Shown here: piece after piece, positions 2,366-40,207 of the stretch
Numbering within the stretch: the stretch's first letter is position 1
How the letters are laid out: each line of letters begins with the position of its first letter
Source: Norana najaformis
Lineage: Eukaryota; Annelida; Clitellata; Crassiclitellata; Hormogastridae
Assembly (NCBI GenBank): GCA_964023275.1
Contig: OZ029917.1
Location: forward strand, 20,929,988-20,993,987
Length of the DNA stretch: 64,000 bases
Direction of reading: 5' to 3'
The notes under the pieces: model-generated
Databases searched by the model: none
What the model saw: the letters and a program-made list of their open reading frames with translations, nothing else
What the model was told of the DNA's origin: nothing
Translations under genes and position numbers: made by a program

Positions 2366-5138
2366 ATGAACTCTTCAGCGTCCGATAATTATCCGCCTTG
2401 TAGTTATGAATACGAAACGAATAACGATGACCTGAATTGCTCGGATTGCACCGGGGACGAGTGTTTTGAACCCGATGTATCGGTGCCTTCTTGGGTGATC
2501 GTCGTCTGCTGTATCTACGCTCTCATCTGCTTCGCCGGTGCCGTTGGCAACGGGCTCGTCATCTTTGTCGTGCTGCGCTTTGCCAAGATGCGCTCCGTAA
2601 CGAACCATTACATCTGCAACTTGGCCGTTTCGGACATCCTCTTCCTGATCGGTCTGCCCCTGATGATCGTGACGGTGATTCGCCACACGTGGATATTCGG
2701 CGCCATCATGTGCAAGGTCTTCTACATTCTGACCTCCCTCAACTGGTTCACGAGCGTCTTCACTCTGACGGTCATGAGCGCCGACCGATACCTGGCCGTC
2801 TGTCACCCGATCAGCTCCATCGGGTTTCGAACTCCGGTCTTGTCGCGGTGGATCTGCATCGGAGTCTGGCTGGTGTCGATGCTCGTCATGCTGCCCGTCT
2901 ACATGTACGCGAACACGGAGTCGAAGGGAGGCACTGAGTCGTGTGTCATTCGCTGGCCGCACGACAACAAGATCTGGGCCGACAAAGCGTTCATCTGGTA
3001 CGGCTTCCTCGTCGGGTTCGCCATTCCAGCCGCTCTCATCTCCGTCTTCTATGCCCTCGTGGTTTTCCGACTCAAGACGACCGGACCTGGAAAGAAGTCG
3101 CAGGAGAAGAAGAAGGCACACAGAAAAGTTACAAAGATGGTCCTCATAGTAATCGCTGCTTACGTCATCTGCTGGCTACCATATTGGATTTTCCAGGTAA
3201 GCCGACATCTTACGGATCATTGTATGTGTGTAGATAGGTACGTAGGTGGATGCATAGAGAAGCACAGACGAATGGATAGATGCGTTTACATAAGTACGCC
3301 TATATGTTTCTATTTATGCAACTGTTTTATACATGTACGCCTATACGTTTCTAAATGGATGCTCGGAAGATTTGAAATCCGAGAGTCCTTGCGCCATCCA
3401 CTTTCCGTTTCATTCCAACTTCCTGTATTACATTCGGAGAACTGTTCTGCCTATCACGAGCAAATTCATGACTCATATAGCGCATTTAAATTGCCAGTGA
3501 CTGAAATATGGAACACAACATCTAGATAAGAAAAAATAAAACTCCAGAAATAAAGTGTAAGTTCTTAGGTTCACGGAATTCAAGACAGAATTAACTGTCA
3601 CAGCATTTATGAGTGATCAGGCAACATCGTTGTGGACACAACAAGGTTTGCCAGCTGCATCAAAGACAATGGAGTGGATAAAGGTCAAAAGGTGAAGGTA
3701 AGACACTTATTTACCCGCCTCAGTTGCACCTATTCAGAAACAACTTGGATCTTTAGACTGATGCTAAATACGACCTCTGCAGTCCTAAGATAGGCCTTCC
3801 AACTTGCATTGTTATTGATGCACCACCAATAACGAAGGGACGAAGGCCTGATTGAGCTCAAGGTAGGATTGTATCCGACAGACGATCACCACCCCATGCT
3901 AACGGGCCTTGGCATCGCTTAATTTCGCTCCATCTGCCAAATAGTGTTGTGCTAAATAAATTATGCCGTGTTATGCAGTACTGTTCTTTAAAACGTTTGG
4001 AGGACAGTGCATTTCTGGGACCGCTTTAGACAATTAAGACTCCACTCGGAAACACTATCACGGACGGTTCTTGAGGTGAATGTATGTATATACTTGCATA
4101 CGTATGTATGTTCGCACGTGCGTACATATGTATGTATGTATGTATGTGTTTATATGTATGTCTGTGTGTATTTATGTAAATGTATGTAACTCCAAGAGGC
4201 AGCCATGGGTATGAAATGTTAGCGACATCACCTTTTAGCTTTGGCATATGATGGCGAATGGCCAGTCCTCTCCCTTGCCGTCTGAGCTTCCCACCCACAG
4301 TGTGTGGTCAGTGTACTTATTTTAAAGTTGAAATCGGAAGTGGAGCAAAAATCTTGAAACATCTCTCTGCGTTGGCGGAAAGTTGAAACCCTTACTCCGT
4401 GCTGACAGTTCAGCAAGCTAACCACTAGACTTAAAGTTAGGGTTAGGCCACATGCGAACGCACCAGGCCAAAGCCCATATGAAATACTTTGCGCTGTTTG
4501 AAGCGATATGTCATGATAATATGTATTTGAAAGCTCAGATATGTGATATGTAGCTTTCGAGCATGTAGAATTTGAAGGTGACTTGCTGATGAATTCAGGA
4601 AGTCACTATTCTGGAAAAAATGCTGCAGAAATTTATGAAGTTGGTTTCCAAGCGACGACAATAGACCAGGAGAAATTCAATTATTATTGACGACAATTCC
4701 CTGTAGAATAATAAATGTCCTTGCACAATAAATGATGGCGATTGGTTTTTTACAGTCTCTCAAAACACCAATCGGCGCAATCTCAGAACCGTGTAAGCGA
4801 AAACTGTAGCAATTTCTGCGGTTGCTATGGTGCGGGTTGGTGTTGTCAAGGAGTTTGCTCATTTTGGCGCTAATATCGGAAGCGATTTAGAAAATGACAG
4901 GAAGCTGAAGATGAAGCAAGAGATGGAGAAGAAGAGGCAGAGACATAGGAAAGGGAAGATGAAGATACAGATGCATGGACAGGACAGAAGAAGGGGAAGA
5001 TGGAGAGACATAGCATGAGGACACTGTAAATGCCGTGTCATCCTAAGGAAACGATGGAGAGGCGGAACCAGAGCAAGGAAGAGTGAGAAACAGCGTATTG
5101 TACTGAAGATGAGGAGATCTATAGATAGAGAGAGATAA

Positions 5139-8341: not shown

Positions 8342-9696
8342 TCTCAGTTGGACCTTGCTAGTTGTTTATGCTACTATGTCTATCAAGTTCTTCAGCTGAG
8401 GTTCTTCTCGAACAAACTTGATGAACTTATAATCGACGTTCAACGAATGTTTAATTGTTGCTTACACTCAAAGATTACCTATCTACATAATTTTAGAATC
8501 GCCTTTCATCCCATACATCTGGCACTCGTTGACATTTGTGCGATCCTGGTCAGAAACTCAACAACAACAGCAGAAGCAGCAGCGGCAGCGGCAGCAGAAA
8601 CAGGATTTTTACAGTGATGAACGTACCTGCCAATAGCGGTTAATGTCAGCAAAAGCAGAAGTAGTAACCCCAATTACATGAACAGCAATGTCACCAGAAC
8701 TATCACCACCGCCATCCGCTCCAAATTTCCACAAAAGCAGCAAATTTTGTTATGCATTTGGCTCAGGCGTAGTACGCATACTAACAGCGGAGGTCAGCCA
8801 TATGAACATCCCAATCAGAAATTGAATTCCCTGCACATGTCAGATTGTTTCTTGTTGCGAAATAATATACATGTATTAGTATAATTAGAATATGATATTG
8901 TATTTGAAAACTGTTGGTTTGTGTTTATTTTCAAAAGTTGGCACCTTCATGAATTTGTCACAGAGTTCATGTAGGTTACAGTTCAAAGTCCTTTCACATG
9001 TAGAGCAGCTTCCACTACTCCCAGACTGCTTCAAAACACTATCAGATATGCAAGACTCAGCATTGATTGTAAAATACTGTTCCAAATTATTAGTTTGCAA
9101 ATGAATATGCAATGCATACTACTTGTTTTCATACTGCAATATCTTATGAGCATGTCCTAAACTGAATACGATTGGATTCAAAGATGCTAGATACTAGAGG
9201 CGATTTGCCATAATGTTCTTAACCACTGCGCTTAAGTGGCATGCATGTGGCCACGACTGTGATAGTGAGGTTTATTTTCCATTACACTGCCTATCATTCT
9301 TCTACAGGTCAGTGGCAGCACTTTTGTGTAGGCCTAATAAGTTTAAATTTTTTCAGAGTTAAAATGTCATTTTTATTAAATAAATGTATGAAGAAAAGCC
9401 GAAGATACAGATTGCAATGACAGGTGAGGAATTTCCACATAGAGATGCCTCATTTGCAAGCGAGAACAGCAGAATCGGCGTTCAAAGACTACTTCAATAC
9501 AGGGGTCTGTTCATAAAATGAAGCCGTATTAACAATGGAAATGTGATCTCTAGTCGGCCACCATATACCTGTTGGAGGCTTCGCGCTGTATATGAACGCC
9601 TGAGCCGTTATGTTGCTTCAAAACGATCCACTGTTTTAATAATTAATGCCGCAGATATGAGAGATATTTTTGGAAGGCCGAGTCGACGACAAGTTA

Positions 9697-9820
9697 CACT
9701 GGACAACAAATTTTTACAAAAGTCGTGTTACTGAAATGAAATTAGTCAGTTCTTATCAATTTGTATGTGCTGAACACGAATATGACAGTGAAAATGCCGA
9801 ATTGGCTCTAGTTTTTTTGT
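9697..9820. repeat. Left terminal inverted repeat
   Basis: Reads CACTGGACAACA at the outer edge, GTTACTGA about 35 bp inside, and GTGCTGAACACGAATAT near 9768-9784. Each block is matched in the same order by the reverse complement of the right end. Confidence 0.8.
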
Positions 9821-9907
9821 AATCTGAAATGAAGTAATTTTATATCGCACAATGCATGCCAATAGTGATACACTTACAGCTAATATTTGTAAAAACCAGG
9901 TCATAGA

Positions 9908-11602
9908 CTAGTTCTTAGATTTTTTTGCCTGTCTCTTGTACAGCTGTTCGGGAGCATCTCTGCGGAGTGTCCAGCAGTAGTCAGCAAAACATTGTAGTGG
10001 ACCATTTTCCCTGGTACCTTTGCTCCATTGTTGCGATATCTTGATGAAAACGTTCGCCATGTTCGTCACTAACCATACCACAGTTGTCAGGGAAGAAATC
10101 CAGATGGGAATGAAGGAAATGCATCTTCAGAGACATATTGCAGCGAAATTTCTGGTACTGCTTGAGCATGTCTTCTACTAGTTCCTTGTAGTTTTCTGCC
10201 CTAACATTCCCCAGAAAGTCTGTAGACACTAGACGAAAAGCATTCCATGCTTGTTTCGCATCACCCTCCAGCAAGTTGTTGAAGCGGTCATCTTTGAAGA
10301 GTTCTCTAATCTGAGGACCCACAAAAACTCCCTCTTTAATCTTTGCTTCGCTGAGTCGAGGGAATTTTTCATGCAGGTATCGGAAAGCTGGCGAAGTGCG
10401 GTCCATGGCTTTCACGAAGTTCTTCACCAAACCTAGTTTGATGTGAAGGGGTGGTAGTAGGATTTTGTGAGCCTCGACCAGAGCTGGGTGCTCGATATTC
10501 TTCTGTCCAACTGCCATGTTTTGTCTGGGAGTCCATTCCTTCCGCACGTAGTGCAACTCTCTTGCTCGGCTATCCCACTCACACAAGAAACACATATATT
10601 TTGTATATCCTTGCTGCAGTCCCATTAAAATGGCAACTACCTTCAAATCACCACACAGGTGCCATTTGTACCTGTTATAGTCAATGGAATGCAGTAGCTG
10701 TTTTAGGTTATCGTATGTCTCTTTCATGTGGACAGCATGCGCTAATGGAATAGATGGAAGACGGTTTCCATTGTGCAAAAGCACAGCCTTAAGACTCAGT
10801 GTTGAAGAGTCTACAAAGAGTCTCCATTCTTGTGGGTCATGAGTGATCTGTAAGGCATTCATGAGGTCGTCAATATTGGAACAGAATACCAGATTATACC
10901 TTCCTTCATAAAGAAAGGTTTCAACTGCTGATGGCGCTTTCTATATGAAGTAATTGTGACATCTTCTTCTAGAAGATTCCATTGTTGGAGTCTTGATCCT
11001 AGCAATTCTGCCTTGTTTTTGGATAAGTCCAAATCACGAACAAGGTCATTTAGTTCTTCCTGTGTTATTCTGTGTGGGATTGATGATGCACCACAGTGAA
11101 AATCGGGATCACTGCACGCTGACGGACCAGGAGAAGAACATGTCGGCTCACCCTTGTCCTCATCAGATGAATCAAGGAAAATATATTCTGCTGGAGGTTC
11201 TGGAATAGGAAGTCCATCGCCATGTGGAACTGGTCTCAATGCTGACGGAATGTTTGGGTAGACTATTGTCGACTTCTTTTGCTTCGTTATTCCACCGGAA
11301 AGAGGAGGAACCAAGCAGAAGTAACAGTCATCTACGTGGTTGCTTTGCTCTCTCCACACCATGGGAACTGCAAACGGCATTGATGGTCTTTTGCCATTCA
11401 ACCACTGTGAAAGCTGTGTTGTACATGTAGCACAGCATATATGCGGGGCCCATGGCTTGTCTTGGTCACCAACCTTGCATTCGAAGTAAGCATGATATGC
11501 CTTCTTGACTTGATAAGTGATACTTTTCTTCTGGTTGGCAAATGTCACTTCCCCACAAATGTAACAAAAGTTGTCCACAGTATTTACGCACTTCCGAGGC
11601 AT
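9908..11602 (-). pseudogene. Broken gene of an uncharacterised transposon-borne family (candidate DDE-type transposase)
   Basis: Starts at MPRKCVN (11602) and runs 247 residues to a stop, then continues in another frame from 10862. A first frameshift lies near 10893-10900. A second, at the A4 run 9986-9989, cuts off a C-terminus whose frame otherwise continues to a stop at 9908. I know related proteins from memory as multicopy uncharacterised proteins in many invertebrates. The N-terminus has a zinc-finger-like cysteine set (C13, C16, C42, C56, C57, C60), then a second pair at C93/C96. The downstream part (numbered from its first Met) has LFVDSS (D18), CGDLK (D72), a C91-x2-C94 pair and SDEHGERFHQ (E267). 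These are placed like the D, D and E of an RNase H-fold transposase. Catalytic function is inference. Inactive as it stands unless the breaks are sequencing errors. Confidence 0.75.
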
Positions 11603-11717
11603 TACTGTTCTGTATTGTATCTAAATGGATAAAGTAATAACAGTTTTATAAAACAGTAACTTAAACTGTCTCGCACAAAGTCTGTAATATTGTAAATGCT
11701 CAACCGTTCCGACTCGC

Positions 11718-11742
11718 TTTATATAGTACACTGCTGACGTCA
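11718..11742 (-). promoter_or_regulatory. TATA box and CRE-like site of the transposon gene
   Basis: On the minus strand TATATAAAG (11718-11726) lies 116 bp upstream of the start codon. A perfect TGACGTCA (11735-11742) is just upstream of it, and a second half-site ACGTCA lies at 11747-11752. Transcription would start near 11690. Function is inferred from motif order. Confidence 0.55.
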
Positions 11743-11937
11743 TCTTACGTCAGCAGCCGACTGGCTGTAGTTTTACATTGCATCAGAAAATGACGTAATC
11801 AACTGTGCATGATGTGTCCATGATGGGATTATGCAATGAGGTGGAATATTACATCATTCTAGACTTATTTAGGATATTGTCGCAGACCTACTGCATAAAT
11901 TTACATGGTGAAACATAAAAAATGAACTATATGAAAT

Positions 11938-12052
11938 ATTTTCAAAACGAGAGCCAATAAAAAAGTTTTATGGTTATATTCGTGTTCAGCACACCAAGAT
12001 GCTACACATTAGGGCCTTTTCCAGTCAGTAACGATTTCTATGTTGACCAGTG
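11938..12052. repeat. Right terminal inverted repeat
   Basis: The reverse complement begins CACTGGTCAACA, then GTTACTGA and GTGCTGAACACGAATAT. The distance between the last two blocks equals that in the left repeat. The outer spacer is shorter than on the left. Confidence 0.8.
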
Positions 12053-12055
12053 TTA

Positions 12056-13682
12056 TCCGTCAAAAGGAAATTACATTTTGATAGAGTGAGAAGACTTTTG
12101 CTGGCCTTGAGCCGTCAGTGCGCACAAATAATTTATAAGAAGCAAAATGGGCAAAATTGTTGATAAATGCAAAGAAAACACAATTACTCAATTGTCTTGT
12201 CGTTGCGATTCCAGTCATATATGATATATAAGAAGTTATAGTTATATATAACTGGTAGTTATTGTTATTTTGCGTTTATTGTCCGCATTATAAAATGCAA
12301 AAAAGCGACATGGACCACACTGGCTTATATAATCACGTGATACTACTTTGACATTACAAGCAGCCATTTTATTTTCCAAAGAAACTAATTAAGCTTCTTA
12401 AATAAAGGTTAATAAGTAAGTAGCTTTTTGTTAGCGTAAGACAAACATTAACAGTAAAGACAGTTGTTCTAGTTAGCATTCACTGTAAGTCGTAAAACGT
12501 CATATAAAATCCCATCTAAAGCAGCTACTGTGAGGTCTTCCGATGCTGTCTTTATTTTAGTAGAGGCCTTCATTTCGAGCCATAATAAGTAAGTTAGTTC
12601 ATTAGTAACCGATTAAAGCAAACAAGGATGACAGCGCGTTTTTAGCGACGGCTTTGAATCGACATGAACATGTCTACACTTTCAATTCACAATAGGGAGT
12701 TTGACTTTTGACTTGAGCGTTGAATATCCCCAAGATCTGACGAATATCTCGCCGACAAGACATTCCTGCGATGCTCCAAGACTATGCTTCACTGGAATCT
12801 TGACTGCTCAAATCTATAGGGCTGTGGGTAGATAAAGCAAGTGGAAATCCCTGCATGTAGTTGTTAGTTGATCCCAATATGGCGGCGACCTAGCCATACC
12901 GTGACAATCGTAGGGTGAATGAGATGGTCCGAAATAAGTACAGCAGAGGCGGACTCGAACGCAAAATGTCTTCGAATACAGGAGATATTTGCAAGCAAAC
13001 AGATTAAAAAACAGATACAGTACACATTGCTTTAGACTAAATATGGCTATAGCTTCTTGTGCATACACCTACTCATGCACGTAATATATACATAATATAT
13101 AGTACATATAAGAAGGCACTGAGATGCGTTCTCCTTCTAAATAGATTAAGTGAAACATAAAACAAGGGGGCAAAAAGTTCAATGTTTCGTCGATCCGTGC
13201 ACGAGTTTCCACCTTACCAAAAGTACATAGTTTATACATAGGATGCAATATTTAGCTTGGAAGGAGACGGGGTTAGGGTCAATGGCGTGATCAGTCGTTC
13301 CCTATAAGGTGATTCTGTTCCGGCGAGAGTAAATCTATTTAGCAGAGGAACGCTGACGGCAAAAGCACGCCAGCTGTTCGCTGCATTGCAGCAATAGTTT
13401 TGTCACACGTCACTTACTTCCGGGGTCATGGCTGACTGCTGTCAAAGACCACTGCATGCAAAGCGAGGTGTCGCATTCAAGGACGCCGTGGCAATGACCT
13501 TCTGGTATAGATGTCACCCGTCTAATTGCCGTTCTTAGAAATACGTCACCTTTTGCCTCTTGGCCATCTCTGGTCAACTACACTATCTCTCTGACGATAA
13601 CCACCACGGTCAAGTGCAGACTGTCAAGCAGAACTGTATATCGAAAAGCAGTTTTTGAAGATGGGACGTTGCAGTTTGGGTA
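12056..13682. other. Intergenic, no gene seen
   Basis: AT-rich in its first half. Apart from the dispersed repeat at 12650-12740, I see nothing that I can name. Confidence 0.5.
12650..12740 (+). repeat. Dispersed repeat, copy 1
   Basis: Aligns with 20421-20510. Shared blocks are CGACATGAACATGTCTA, ACTTTCAATTC, TTTGACTTTTGAC and TGAGCGTTGAATATCCC. The sequences diverge afterwards. The family is unknown. Confidence 0.7.
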
Positions 13683-18489: not shown

Positions 18490-18605
18490 CGAGTTTTTCC
18501 AAAGGATAGCGATTTTTGACTACGATATCACTAGAAACAACTATCAACTGATGCCTTGTGCATTATGATAATGGCGCTATAGAAGTCATTAGATTAGATT
18601 AGACA
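18490..18605 (+). mobile_element. LINE 3' tail, copy 1
   Basis: Shares with 51500-51640 the block TGCCTTGTGCATTATGATAA, followed by a GCTATAGAAGT block and a terminal (TAGATTA) run. The upstream part matches more loosely. It looks like a 5'-truncated LINE copy that ends in its own short simple repeat. Confidence 0.6.
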
Positions 18606-20035: not shown

Positions 20036-20420
20036 TATCACTCCATAGGACCTGGTAAACTCCGGCTGTAAAATCGAATTGCACTAAATCGAAGATTAAA
20101 CTGGAGGCCCGAGGAAAGAAAGGAAATGGAGATACTAACAGTCGAAGTAACCTCTGGTAACCTATCAGAAGACGCAAGAGGCTGACTTTAACGCACCCTC
20201 TATATGCATACATTCTAAGGCCATAAACGAAGAGGCGTGTACACAGACAAGAAGAAGGTATACGTTGCATTAAAGCCATCAGACTAACACAGACTGGATG
20301 CTATTAGGGTACAAATTATCTGGAAATACTCGTGCCATGTTTGAGCAAAATCCAGTTCTTGAGCTATGCCGTTCTTTACACGTAGGCCTATATAAAGTCT
20401 GAAAAAAGACTTTTTAGGAA

Positions 20421-20510
20421 CGACTTCGAACCGACATGAACATGTCTAAACTTTCAATTCGTAATAGGCAGTTTGACTTTTGACCTGAGCGTTGAATATC
20501 CCGAAGATGC
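20421..20510 (+). repeat. Dispersed repeat, copy 2
   Basis: Partner of 12650-12740; see there. Same orientation, 7.8 kb apart, one on each side of the LTR-like copy 2 and the 19-kb LINE cluster. Confidence 0.7.
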
Positions 20511-20514
20511 CCGG

Positions 20515-22565
20515 CAAATCCAGGAAAAGCAAAGTTTTGGAGAGTCTGTAGGCCTAAATGACTGCACACTACTTTCAACATCTGCTGCAAGAAATTCTTT
20601 GATGACGATGGGATTTTTTACTTAGACAACAGTGCAAACTCCAAACACCTTTGCCACCTACAAACCTGGATAAATACAGAAAATAGATTATCAAGAGATT
20701 TATTTGTTTCTTTTTGCATTCGGGATTCATATCTCGTTATTTTTGAGCAACTCAATTAAAAATTTTCTGTTGACAGCAGGTTTGCAAGTGAGAGGCCATA
20801 ATTTCCCTCCCCCATTTACCCCTTTGCTTCAGGATATGATATTCATGGGCCAAAAGAACCTGCCAGAACCTTCACGGCGCCATGATCTCTTTCACCTTCC
20901 TTGTATGTGTATTTCGGCGAGTCGTATTACTACTTATTAAACTCCAAGGTCAGTCAGTGAAGTAGCAGTTAAATCAAAATGGATTCCTCTATGTACGTGA
21001 ATTCTCGATTGCACACCTACATTGAAATCTTACAGCCCAAAAATTTCAATTGTTTGGGTAATTCCATACCAAACGACGAGATGGTGGCTTTATGAATTAA
21101 TTTAAGGAACACTTGTTTTTTCAATTAGCTGCGAATTTTTGGCATATTTTAGTGAAGTCTTTGTTGAATGCATTAGCTATCAACTTATGTTTAATCTAAG
21201 CAAATAATTTCCATAGCGGCATTATCGTAATGAATGAGGCATCAGTCGATGGTCGGTTCAAGTGAGATCGTAGTCAAAAATCATGGTAGAAATCCAAATC
21301 GGAAAATATGCTTATTGATTGCATCTTCTGTGCTAAACAAATTTTTCAATTCGCGTCAGACTCTGGAGTCGGAGATGTCGTGACCTTCAACGTCAACCTT
21401 ACCGCTCACAGTGCAATTCCCGCTGATTCTCTGCTTTCAGCATTTCCTCACTTGGTTGATGATAACAGCCGACGTTTTAATTACTTGTTCGTTGATTAAA
21501 AAAAAATTCGGGTGGCAGAAACGAAATATCGCAGAGTAAAATTTTTTTATAATACACATATGAACGTTGACTGAGATGAAGTGAACCTCACCACAATTGC
21601 GCGATCTTCCTAGAATAAATCCCGTGTGTTTGTTTCCCCACTGATTCCAAAGGTTTTGAAACAGATTGTTTCATTAAGGGAGTAACTCGGTCATAAGCGG
21701 AGTTGAAAGACTCGTAACCACCCAGCGCCACATTTTGTCCTGACTTAAGAGGTTTTGGTGTGATATCGACAGTCTAGCTTTCTAGGATACCATAAAAAAC
21801 CAGACTGTCTGCCCCGAAATAGGCATCAAGGCTGCCCTGTGGTAATTGCAGTATTTTTCGCTGGTCAGAAAATCAATATTCTCCGTCAGGGGTTTAATTC
21901 TGTCCTTATTCGTTTTGATTCCGCTTCAGTGGTACCCCGCATCGAGTCCGTGAACGTTTTTCACGCAAGCCGTGTCTTGTTTATAAACGACGAGAGATAC
22001 AATGGTAAAAATTAGAGGTGACTTACGTTTCGCACGCCTCTAACCTACAGAAGTGTGGTTAAGCGTGCCCCTAGAGTTGAAGGGCATTTCCTACTGATGC
22101 GCAAATACGACGACAGCAAACGAACAACAAGACAATTTTTGTATGTTCGTAGCATTATATAGCGCCTGTTAGGAACCTCACAAAGGCACTGATACTAATG
22201 AACGAATGGCAGGTTGAATTGACCTTGCATTCCATGGGCGGTGAGTCACCCAATGTCAAGTAGAAACTCTTCTTGGCATACTCTAAAAAGAGTCCTTCAT
22301 ATCCATGGCGCTTTCGACATGTCAAGACATGTCAACGAGTCTGCAACCAGATCTTCTAATATGGTCTCAATGTATGGCTTTATTTGCTCCTTTCTCGCGA
22401 TTAACGGTGACTCACGACCACGCAGACAACGGAACAATCGTGAGCATCATCGTAGACTTCTTGATTAACTTCTAAGACAATTTTCTCTAATGTCGCAAGC
22501 TGAAAGAAACAATAGCTCATCTGTTTTGAACAGGCGACAGCCATTAAAATTGAAAGAAGCTTGCA
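20515..22565. other. Intergenic, no gene seen
   Basis: No supportable gene. The motif TTATATAGCGCC at 22155-22166 is the LINE tail signature in minus orientation. Confidence 0.45.
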
Positions 22566-23393: not shown

Positions 23394-23486
23394 GGCTCAC
23401 ACTGATTACATGGTGTGCTGGACGAAGTCTCATTTGGGACGCTACTATGACGAATATTTTGGCCGTTTCCTATTTAGCAAATATGT

Positions 23487-24356
23487 CGGTCACAGAGGAT
23501 GCTGCAGCTGAGAAGGTAGCTATTCAGTCACAGAGGATGCTGCAGCTGAGAAGGTAGCTATTCAGTCACAGAGGATGCTGCAGCTGAGAAGGTAGCTATT
23601 CAGTCACAGAGGATGCTGCAGCTGAGAAGGTAGCTATTCACAATGCTGCAGCTGAGAGGGTAGCTATTCACAATGCTGCAGCTGAGAAGGTAGCTATTCA
23701 GTCACAGAGGATGCTGCAGCTGAGAAGGTAGCTATTCACAATGCTGCAGCTGAGAAGGTAGCTATTCACAATGCTGCAGCTGAGAAGGTAGCTATTCAGT
23801 CACAGAGGATGCTGCAGCTGAGAAGGTAGCTATTCACAATGCTGCAGCTGAGAAGGTAGCTATTCACAATGCTGCAGCTGAGAAGGTAGCTATTCAGTCA
23901 CAGAGGATGCTGCAGCTGAGAAGGTAGCTATTCACAATGCTGCAGCTGAGAAGGTAGCTATTCACAATGCTGCAGCTGAGAAGGTAGCTATTCAGTCACA
24001 GAGGATGCTGCAGCTGAGAAGGTAGCTATTCACAATGCTGCAGCTGAGAAGGTAGCTATTCACAATGCTGCAGCTGAGAAGGTAGCTATTCAGTCACAGA
24101 GGATGCTGCAGCTGAGAAGGTAGCTATTCAGTCACAGAGGATGCTGCAGCTGAGAAGGTAGCTATTCAGTCACAGAGGATGCTGCAGCTGAGAAGGTAGC
24201 TATTCAGTCACAGAGGATGCTGCAGCTGAGAAGGTAGCTATTCAGTCACAGAGGATGCTGCAGCTGAGAAGGTAGCTATTCAGTCACAGAGGATGCTGCA
24301 GCTGAGAAGGTAGCTATTCAGTCACAGAGGATGCTGCAGCTGAGAAGGTTGCTATT
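23487..24356. repeat. Minisatellite with two unit lengths and higher-order structure
   Basis: Twenty-five tandem units share the core GCTGCAGCTGAGAAGGTAGC. Fifteen are 38-bp (L, with CAGTCACAGAGGAT) and ten are 30-bp (s, with CACAAT). The order is L4, then ss-L repeated five times (a 98-bp higher-order unit), then L to the end: L1-L4 23487-23638, ss-L units 23639-24128, L10-L15 24129-24356. Units are almost identical, which indicates recent amplification. Unit lengths are not multiples of three and stops occur in frame, so it does not encode protein. Confidence 0.95.
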
Positions 24357-24519
24357 CACAAAAAATGTTAGTTATAGCCAACTTCCACCACTTCCCACTT
24401 TGTCCCTCTGGCCTTCGAAACTCTTGATCCTCTAAATAATGCTGGCCGGGCCTTTCGCCACAGCGTTGGCACAGAGCCTCAGTAATGTCCCTGGAGATAC
24501 AACAGAGAAGACATCTTTT

Positions 24520-38416: not shown

Positions 38417-38540
38417 TTTTCCTCCTCTCCATCCTCTTCCTCTCCATCCTCTTCCTCTCCATCCTCTTCCTCTCCATCCTCTTCCTCTCCATCCTCTTCC
38501 TCTCCTTCCTCTTCCTCTCCATCCTCTTCCTCTCCATCTG
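38417..38540. repeat. 15-bp tandem repeat CTCTTCCTCTCCATC
   Basis: About eight units, one with CTTC in place of CATC. A unit length divisible by three makes it open on both strands. Confidence 0.95.
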
Positions 38541-38584
38541 ACTCGTTCCACATTGAAAGATTGCGTGGATATTTCCGCGAAAAC

Positions 38585-39311
38585 GGCGACAGACAGACGA
38601 AAGCAAAGGCAGAGAGACAAACAAACGGCGACAGACAGACGAAAGCAAAGGCAGAGAGACAAACAAACGGAGACAGACAGACGAAAGCAAAGGCAGAGAG
38701 ACAAACAAACGGCGACAGACAGACGAAAGCAAAGGCAGAGAGACAAACAAACGGCGACAGACAGACGAAAGCAAAGGCAGAGAGACAAACAAACGGAGAC
38801 AGACAGACGAAAGCAAAGGCAGAGAGACAAACAAACGGAGACAGACAGACGAAAACAAAGGCAGAGAGACAAACAAACGGCGACAGACAGACGAAAGCAA
38901 AGGCAGAGAGACAAACAAACGGCGACAGACAGACGAAAGCAAAGGCAGAGAGACAAACAAACGGCGACAGACAGACGAAAGCAAAGGCAGAGAGACAAAC
39001 AAACGGAGACAGACAGACGAAAGCAAAGGCAGAGAGACAAACAAACGGAGACAGACAGACGAAAACAAAGGCAGAGAGACAAACAAACGGCGACAGACAG
39101 ACGAAAGCAAAGGCAGAGAGACAAACAAACGGCGATAGACAGACGAAAGCAAAGGCAGAGAGACAAACAAACGGCGACAGACAGACGAAAGCAAAGGCAG
39201 AGAGACAAACAAACGGCGACAGACAGACGAAAGCAAAGGCAGAGAGACAAACAAACGGAGACAGACAGACGAAAGCAAAGGCAGAGAGACAAACAAACGG
39301 CGACAGACATG
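38585..39311. repeat. 42-bp minisatellite, about 17 units
   Basis: Units contain CGACAGACAGACGAAAGC, AAAGGCAGAGAG and ACAAACAAACGG, and vary mainly at GGCGAC/GGAGAC and AAAGC/AAAAC. The period is 14 codons with no stops in at least four frames, so frames of about 270-320 residues exist on both strands. I regard them as artefacts: the composition is simple and no start context or codon bias stands out. Confidence 0.95.
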
Positions 39312-40207
39312 ACAGACAAAGAGATTAACGCATGGAGGTATGGTTTGAACGTCATGATTGTGTCATGCCTGTGACAAAACCGAATAACAGAGCAATGCGA
39401 AGAAGCAGAGGAGAGCTAGAAATGGCAGGAAGCAGAGCAATATGATATGTAGGAAATGACAAGGAAGCGGGTACGGAAGAAGATCTAGAAAATAAAGAGA
39501 AGCATTTTATTCGCCGACGAAGAGAGATGTTTAGAAAATCGAAAGCGAGAAAGCGAAAGCCGAGCACAAAGCGCTGCAAGGTACATCGAATGATATAGAA
39601 ATCCAGTGTAAGTACAATGCAACACGCCGCTATGGCTATCCATTAGCTGCATTGCTCTTGTCGTGTTTGTCTCAAATTACACAGAGACCATGCATTAGAG
39701 GAAGAATTCAGCTGAATGATGGACGTAAATACAATAAACTTGCCATTCATTTACAACATATTAACGCTACGATAGACTGCAAAGAAGCTCAGCTAAAATT
39801 GGAGTATGCTTGACGACTAAATGGTTGGGTAAGAAATCGCCAGAGCATGTTTTTTGTGCATTTAACCGGTTGCGGTGGACTAGGCCCATCCATCGCCGCC
39901 ATCTATGATGCAGCAGCAGCAGCAGCAGTAACCGCAGTAGACGGAAGAAGACTGCATCACCGTCGCTGGTGTTACTGACTGCCGGTGATAGTTGACAGAA
40001 GAGTTTTTCTTCGGATTAGCTAATGCTCCTCAGGGTGGTCGCGTATAACACCTACCTGTCATCCTATACACCCTCAACCAACTACATGCTCTTCTCAGTC
40101 CCATCCATCCTTCTTCTACGCATGCATCTTATGCAGACATGAGAAAGGGAATCATATATATACATATATATATATATATATGTACATGAAACAAAATCTC
40201 AAAAACA

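Follow-up and report, generated by a model that had tools for sequence, protein, structure and literature searches.

A compact, high-copy DNA transposon family of probable Chapaev3 affinity in the genome of the annelid Norana najaformis

The 64,000-nucleotide stretch of Norana najaformis DNA analysed here (the window) carries one copy of a compact DNA transposon, inserted between two TTA trinucleotides. The element and its parts are the following.

9697..12052, minus strand (orientation of the gene): whole transposon copy, 2,356 bp, with exact CACTGG/CCAGTG boundaries
9694..9696, no strand: left copy of the 3-bp target-site duplication, TTA, abutting the element end
12053..12055, no strand: right copy of the 3-bp target-site duplication, TTA, abutting the element end
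9697..9845, plus strand: left imperfect terminal inverted repeat, on the 3' side of the gene, about 150 bp, limits transferred from the intact copy L058
11915..12052, minus strand: right imperfect terminal inverted repeat, on the 5' side of the gene, about 140 bp, limits transferred from L058
9766..9787, plus strand: conserved sub-terminal motif TGTGCTGAACACGAATATGACA, a putative transposase-binding site, from arm comparison and end alignment
10859..11602, minus strand: 5' segment of the disrupted transposase gene, 247 aa; ORF with a cysteine-rich, zinc-finger-like N-terminal region
9981..10862, minus strand: 3' segment of the disrupted transposase gene, 293 aa; ORF with a putative DDE core

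The left boundary reads CACTGGACAACA from position 9697 and is preceded by TTA at 9694-9696; the right boundary reads TGTTGACCAGTG to position 12052 and is followed by TTA at 12053-12055. The CACTGG ends between two TTA trinucleotides, described in an earlier note on this DNA, are therefore real and exact at 9697 and 12052. The imperfect inverted repeats bearing these ends, claimed in the same note, were confirmed by alignment of the two ends of the intact copy L058, which match over approximately 150 bp with a score of 73, compared with 37 for the best of 200 shuffles. In the window copy, the 50-nt inverted arms 9766-9815 and 11944-11993 are 78% complementary, and a motif similar to TGTGCTGAACACGAATATGACA is found in inverted orientation at the right end, within 11944-11993. 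Judging from the sequence of the two ends, this sub-terminal motif may be the site at which the transposase binds. Rfam and tRNA scans of the window gave no matches.

The gene of the window copy is split into two minus-strand ORFs, 11602-10859 (247 aa) and 10862-9981 (293 aa). The second of these holds the strings CFLC, LPPLHIKLG, HFLHSHLDFFP and DEHGERFHQD, and stops earlier than in intact copies. As its gene is broken, the window copy makes no whole transposase and would be mobile only with help from other copies. The single minus-strand gene reported previously thus exists in the family, where it forms one ORF of 563 aa, and not in the window copy, where there are two ORFs.

Copies were sought throughout the genome (608 Mb, 17 contigs) using the terminal sequence 9697-9850. 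The best 40 of 470 candidate matches, which are 99-100% identical to the query, constitute the sample: the window copy and 39 others fetched with their flanks. Both ends are present in 39 of these 40 best copies, the window copy included, and the elements are 2,310-2,359 bp long; the sole exception, L063, lacks the right end. Besides the window copy, 38 of the 39 fetched loci accordingly show the CACTGG...CCAGTG arrangement, which bears out the predicted conservation of the ends in other copies. In 30 loci extracted with their left flank, the left end begins with CACTGG and the 30 bases outside it vary between loci. The sequence common to the copies stops at the duplication and does not run past TTA into conserved sequence, an outcome that the earlier note had regarded as contrary to its reading. 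Individual copies carry 3-15 substitutions relative to the majority sequence (mean 0.36%), a figure obtained on the best-scoring copies; the sample is therefore biased towards young copies, whose youth partly reflects the way they were chosen.

Genome-wide, exact left ends occur 819 times, exact right ends 899 times and a 25-base gene motif 980 times, and the reversed-pattern controls gave 0. The family is represented by many hundreds of copies in this genome, and the sampled ones are nearly identical.

Linkage between the gene and the ends was evaluated on contig C1, where a left end was considered in reach of a gene motif within 700 bases and a right end within 8,000. Sixty-three of the 96 gene motifs on this contig have both exact ends in reach, 13 only the left one, 17 only the right one and 3 neither; at least one exact end is thus in reach of 93 of the 96. 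This co-occurrence on C1 indicates that the gene and the ends travel together. The inverted repeats are part of the gene's own element and do not belong to an unrelated one, and gene copies without ends, another result that would have been adverse to the initial proposal, are rare (3 of 96). The ends were searched as exact 21-base matches, which miss an end with one mutation, and the three motifs without either end may be mutated or truncated. The spacing is 2,310-2,359 bp in 65 of the 70 exact-end pairs on C1; of the other five, three are longer, possibly through mispairing or inserts, and two span only 1,029 and 1,706 bp. Short non-autonomous versions on C1 therefore amount to only 2 of 70 exact-end pairs, in a search that versions with mutated ends would escape.

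Identical 3-bp sequences abut both ends in 27 of 39 copies, compared with a mean of 7.8 matches and a maximum of 16 when the pairing of flanks was shuffled 2,000 times. The 27 abutting duplications are TAA (12), TTA (8), TAT (3), CTA (2), ATA (1) and TAG (1), that is, TAA or TTA in 20 of 27. The bases outside them are also biased: A precedes the left trinucleotide in 29 of 39 copies, and T follows the right one equally often (29 of 39); the window copy has G before its left TTA, and T after the right one as in the majority. The TWA duplications, together with the outer A and T, indicate that the target is A-TWA-T. ATWA precedes 375 of the 819 exact left ends in the genome. Abutting matches longer than 3 bp were found only in L055 (4), L059 (6) and L061 (5). 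Transib transposons produce target-site duplications of 5 bp, and those of Chapaev proper are 4 bp long, unlike the 3 bp seen here. A Transib identity was rejected in view of the 3-bp abutting duplications in 27 of 39 copies, five abutting bases being present in L061.

Empty sites, which the earlier note had listed as supporting evidence, were recovered for two other copies and not for the window copy, the joined flanks of which matched only their own place in the genome. Eleven further joined sites, out of 26 prepared, were searched in one query and the best 40 of 239 candidates were scored; among these, 39 places correspond to the L032 site and one to the L043 site, and places belonging to the other 9 sites may lie among the candidates below this cut-off. 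For L032, 38 places cover all 117 query bases in 117 bases with 88-90% identity, and one further place covers 113 in 113 bases with 91% identity, which makes them length-matched empty sites. The single place for L043 is a near match (92% over 115 query bases in 111), and the evidence is weaker than for L032. That the empty places contain a single duplication is deduced from the matched lengths. Empty places span the junction at two sites. At L032 the element sits in a dispersed repeat that has 39 or more further places in the genome, 88-91% identical, and this repeat is also found uninterrupted.

A plain abutting 3-bp duplication is missing in 12 of the 39 copies. Nine of these (L045, L053, L055, L056, L060, L061, L064, L067 and L069) have a TWA (or TAC) duplication followed by one to three extra bases, at the left end only, which is the gene's 3' side; in L055 and L061, a longer duplication is an equally good reading. 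Among the remaining three, L059 is ambiguous and L033 has no duplication. At L038:1-1049, the insertion lies directly against a partial second copy of the element, and there is no duplication that matches.

The same asymmetry was seen genome-wide. On the left, ATAA followed by one or two bases and then the end occurs at least 59 times (11 and 48, counted from 100 of the 107 places listed) for 819 left ends, and on the right 19 times (5 and 14, from all 61 of 61 places) for 899 right ends. The Fisher p value for the left excess of one or two extra bases is 3e-7, but it does not test the mechanism, since a longer end passed down within one lineage would make the places interdependent. With three extra bases there is no left excess (41 left versus 42 right), in a class that includes ordinary sites such as ATAATAA. 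We tentatively suggest, as a possibility with less than even chances, that processing differs between the two ends, with an exact cut at the right (gene 5') end and, at the left one, frequent retention or gain of one to a few outside bases, which would then be carried to the new site. Such end-asymmetric cleavage does not feature in the passages on CMC transposons consulted here. This left-end asymmetry, if real, provides a testable clue to the way in which Chapaev3-type transposases cut.

Intact copies contain one intronless ORF of 563 aa (reference L058:1467-3155). An ORF of at least 560 aa is kept in 15 of 39 copies, and 74 of the 77 scored protein matches in the genome have no stop. The intact protein has CxxC pairs at positions 13, 57, 93 and 337. 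D264 and D318 lie upstream of C337xxC340, and the protein also has LH at 385-386, H494xxxxH499 and DEHGERFHQD at 512; D264, D318, E513 and E516 are invariant in alignment A1, which consists of three rows only. Changes among copies comprise 195 nonsynonymous (13 of them stops) and 51 synonymous ones, a ratio of 3.8 compared with 3.0 expected without selection. Among the sampled young copies the gene thus shows no evidence of purifying selection, as is expected soon after a burst.

Pfam scans of both window ORFs and of the intact protein, with E values up to 10, did not detect any transposase family. A sub-threshold match to Retrotrans_gag (E 0.11) was rejected as due to chance. PDB sequence searches with the protein gave nothing of note and no solved relative, and none was found in viral_contigs and genome_contigs, where 11 pattern-matched stretches do not encode a relative. 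AlphaFold predictions from the single sequence (mean pLDDT 38.0) and from the three-row alignment (37.6) gave no usable fold. Three motif strings of the protein had no match in the literature searched.

Pfam contains models of both the Harbinger and the En/Spm transposases, and the lack of a transposase match up to E 10 argues against two alternative identities of the element. A PIF/Harbinger-type element would account for the TWA duplications, since PIF/Harbinger also duplicates TWA, but it agrees neither with the CAC ends nor with the C(2)C and H(4)H signature and its CMC-type motif order, and the family almost certainly does not belong there. The CACTG-type ends and the 3-bp duplication would equally suit a CACTA/EnSpm element proper; this identity is nevertheless very improbable, as TWA between A and T is the target attributed to Chapaev3 in PMC4079192.

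The family has defined ends, a 3-bp duplication, a target preference, gene-end linkage, a high copy number and intact ORFs elsewhere in the genome. Taken together, the boundaries, the 3-bp duplications, the empty places and the gene-end linkage show the gene to be part of a compact DNA transposon; they thereby support the proposal of the earlier note that this gene family is the transposase of such an element. We consider it highly probable (about 0.9) that the family belongs to the Chapaev3 group of DNA transposons (CMC/CMCT clade), is autonomous, moves by cut-and-paste and is observed shortly after a burst, an assignment made by setting the family against published feature descriptions. The initial idea of a lineage not properly described is not supported: a Repbase report of 2008, cited in PMC4411706, dealt with Chapaev3, and the Chapaev3 members Garfield, Merrow and Conan were characterised by Zhang et al. 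in 2014 (PMC4079192). As the family fits the already described Chapaev3, it would count as a good further example of a known system rather than as a new one.

According to PMC4079192, Chapaev ends are 5'-CAC/GTG-3', Chapaev in general produces a 3 to 4 bp duplication, the Chapaev3 target is a TWA duplication always located between A and T, and most Chapaev3 have a single exon, Garfield and Merrow having two; the Garfield element is 2,289 bp long and its 556-aa transposase carries the motifs C(2)C, LH and H(4)H. The testable features published for CMC/Chapaev3 fit the present family, in accordance with the CMC-group reading of the earlier note. It has CAC...GTG ends and a 3-bp TWA duplication (27 of 39 abutting, with TAA or TTA in 20 cases). 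For the outer A and T there is a strong preference (29 of 39 each), compared with the ‘always’ of that paper, and C(2)C, LH and H(4)H, located after the second D, were matched by eye to the notation of the same source. Garfield_BM is also close in length, 2.29 kb as against 2.35 kb here, with a transposase of 556 as against 563 aa. The gene has a single exon, as in most Chapaev3 and unlike the two-exon Garfield and Merrow. The sequence of the family and its host differ from those of the described Chapaev3. Short internally deleted copies are few here (2 of 70 end pairs on C1), whereas PMC4079192 devotes a section to nonautonomous elements.

The cysteine-rich N-terminus followed by a putative DDE core recalls Chapaev proper as presented in PMC4411706, where the N-terminal Chapa zinc finger is said to be present in Chapaev3 too. 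CMCT is a wider group, the signature of which is given in PMC12730594; in the literature consulted, A-TWA-T is stated for Chapaev3 alone. Fragments of Chapaev3 in a fly are listed in PMC3630058. The family could also represent a separate CMC-type superfamily that has yet to be described, a sister group of Chapaev3 or EnSpm with which it shares target and ends through descent or convergence. The protein has no database family match (Pfam, PDB) and its likeness to Chapaev3 comes from descriptions, but all the Chapaev3 features tested fit (A-TWA-T, CAC/GTG, C(2)C, LH, H(4)H, ~2.3 kb, ~556 aa, mostly one exon), and we regard a separate superfamily as very unlikely.

As a member of Chapaev3, the element could transpose as follows. 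Its single intronless gene would produce a 563-aa transposase, the putative N-terminal zinc finger and/or core of which may bind the sub-terminal motif in both ends. The putative DDE core, formed by D264, D318 and E513 or E516, would cut at CAC/GTG, and C337/C340 together with H494/H499 may hold zinc. The excised element would then join an A-TWA-T target with a 3-bp stagger, and TWA would thereby be duplicated. A protein matching no Pfam family beyond the weak gag hit would in this way be explained as a Chapaev3-type transposase, and such genes should consequently be masked as transposons in gene counts. The many intact, near-identical copies make the family a good source for a working member of the clade, which is related to RAG1 ancestry according to PMC4411706.

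The same genome contains a second Chapaev3-like family (L078:769-2409, minus strand; L079:567-2132, plus strand), the protein of which is 53-54% identical to that of the first (alignment A1). Its ends, CACTGGATCACA, are of the CACTGG type, its two target sites are A-TTA/TTA-T and A-TAA/TAA-T, and its sub-terminal motif resembles, and partly matches, that of the first family. It keeps D264, D318, C337, C340, H386, E513 and E516, as well as the N-terminal C5, C13, C16, C42, C56, C57, C60, C93, C96, H54 and H89. C(2)C and LH are conserved in both L078 and L079; the HFLHSH / H(4)H region is intact in L079 and damaged in L078. A pattern avoiding the usual codons of the first family had 326 matches in the genome (156 + 170), and inspection of 55 of them revealed 50 second-family-like sequences and 5 that resemble variants of the first family. 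The second family probably has some hundreds of copies. A more distant relative is located at L080:1950-2174 (plus strand), where only 76 residues on the C-terminal side match (59%) and the frame is damaged.

Several other features of the window were recorded. A 98-nt direct repeat, 89% identical, occupies 12639-12736 and 20411-20508, one copy lying approximately 590 bases to the right of the element. The 95-nt arms of an inverted repeat (18511-18605 and 21188-21282; 82%) are 2,582 nt apart and possibly belong to another transposon. Tandem repetition is seen at 23410-24437, where 38-bp repeats form a 98-bp higher-order unit, and at 38455-39468, where a 42-bp array is open on both strands, with a 14-residue unit. 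A 387-aa ORF at 2366-3529 (plus strand) resembles, by eye, a 7-transmembrane receptor.
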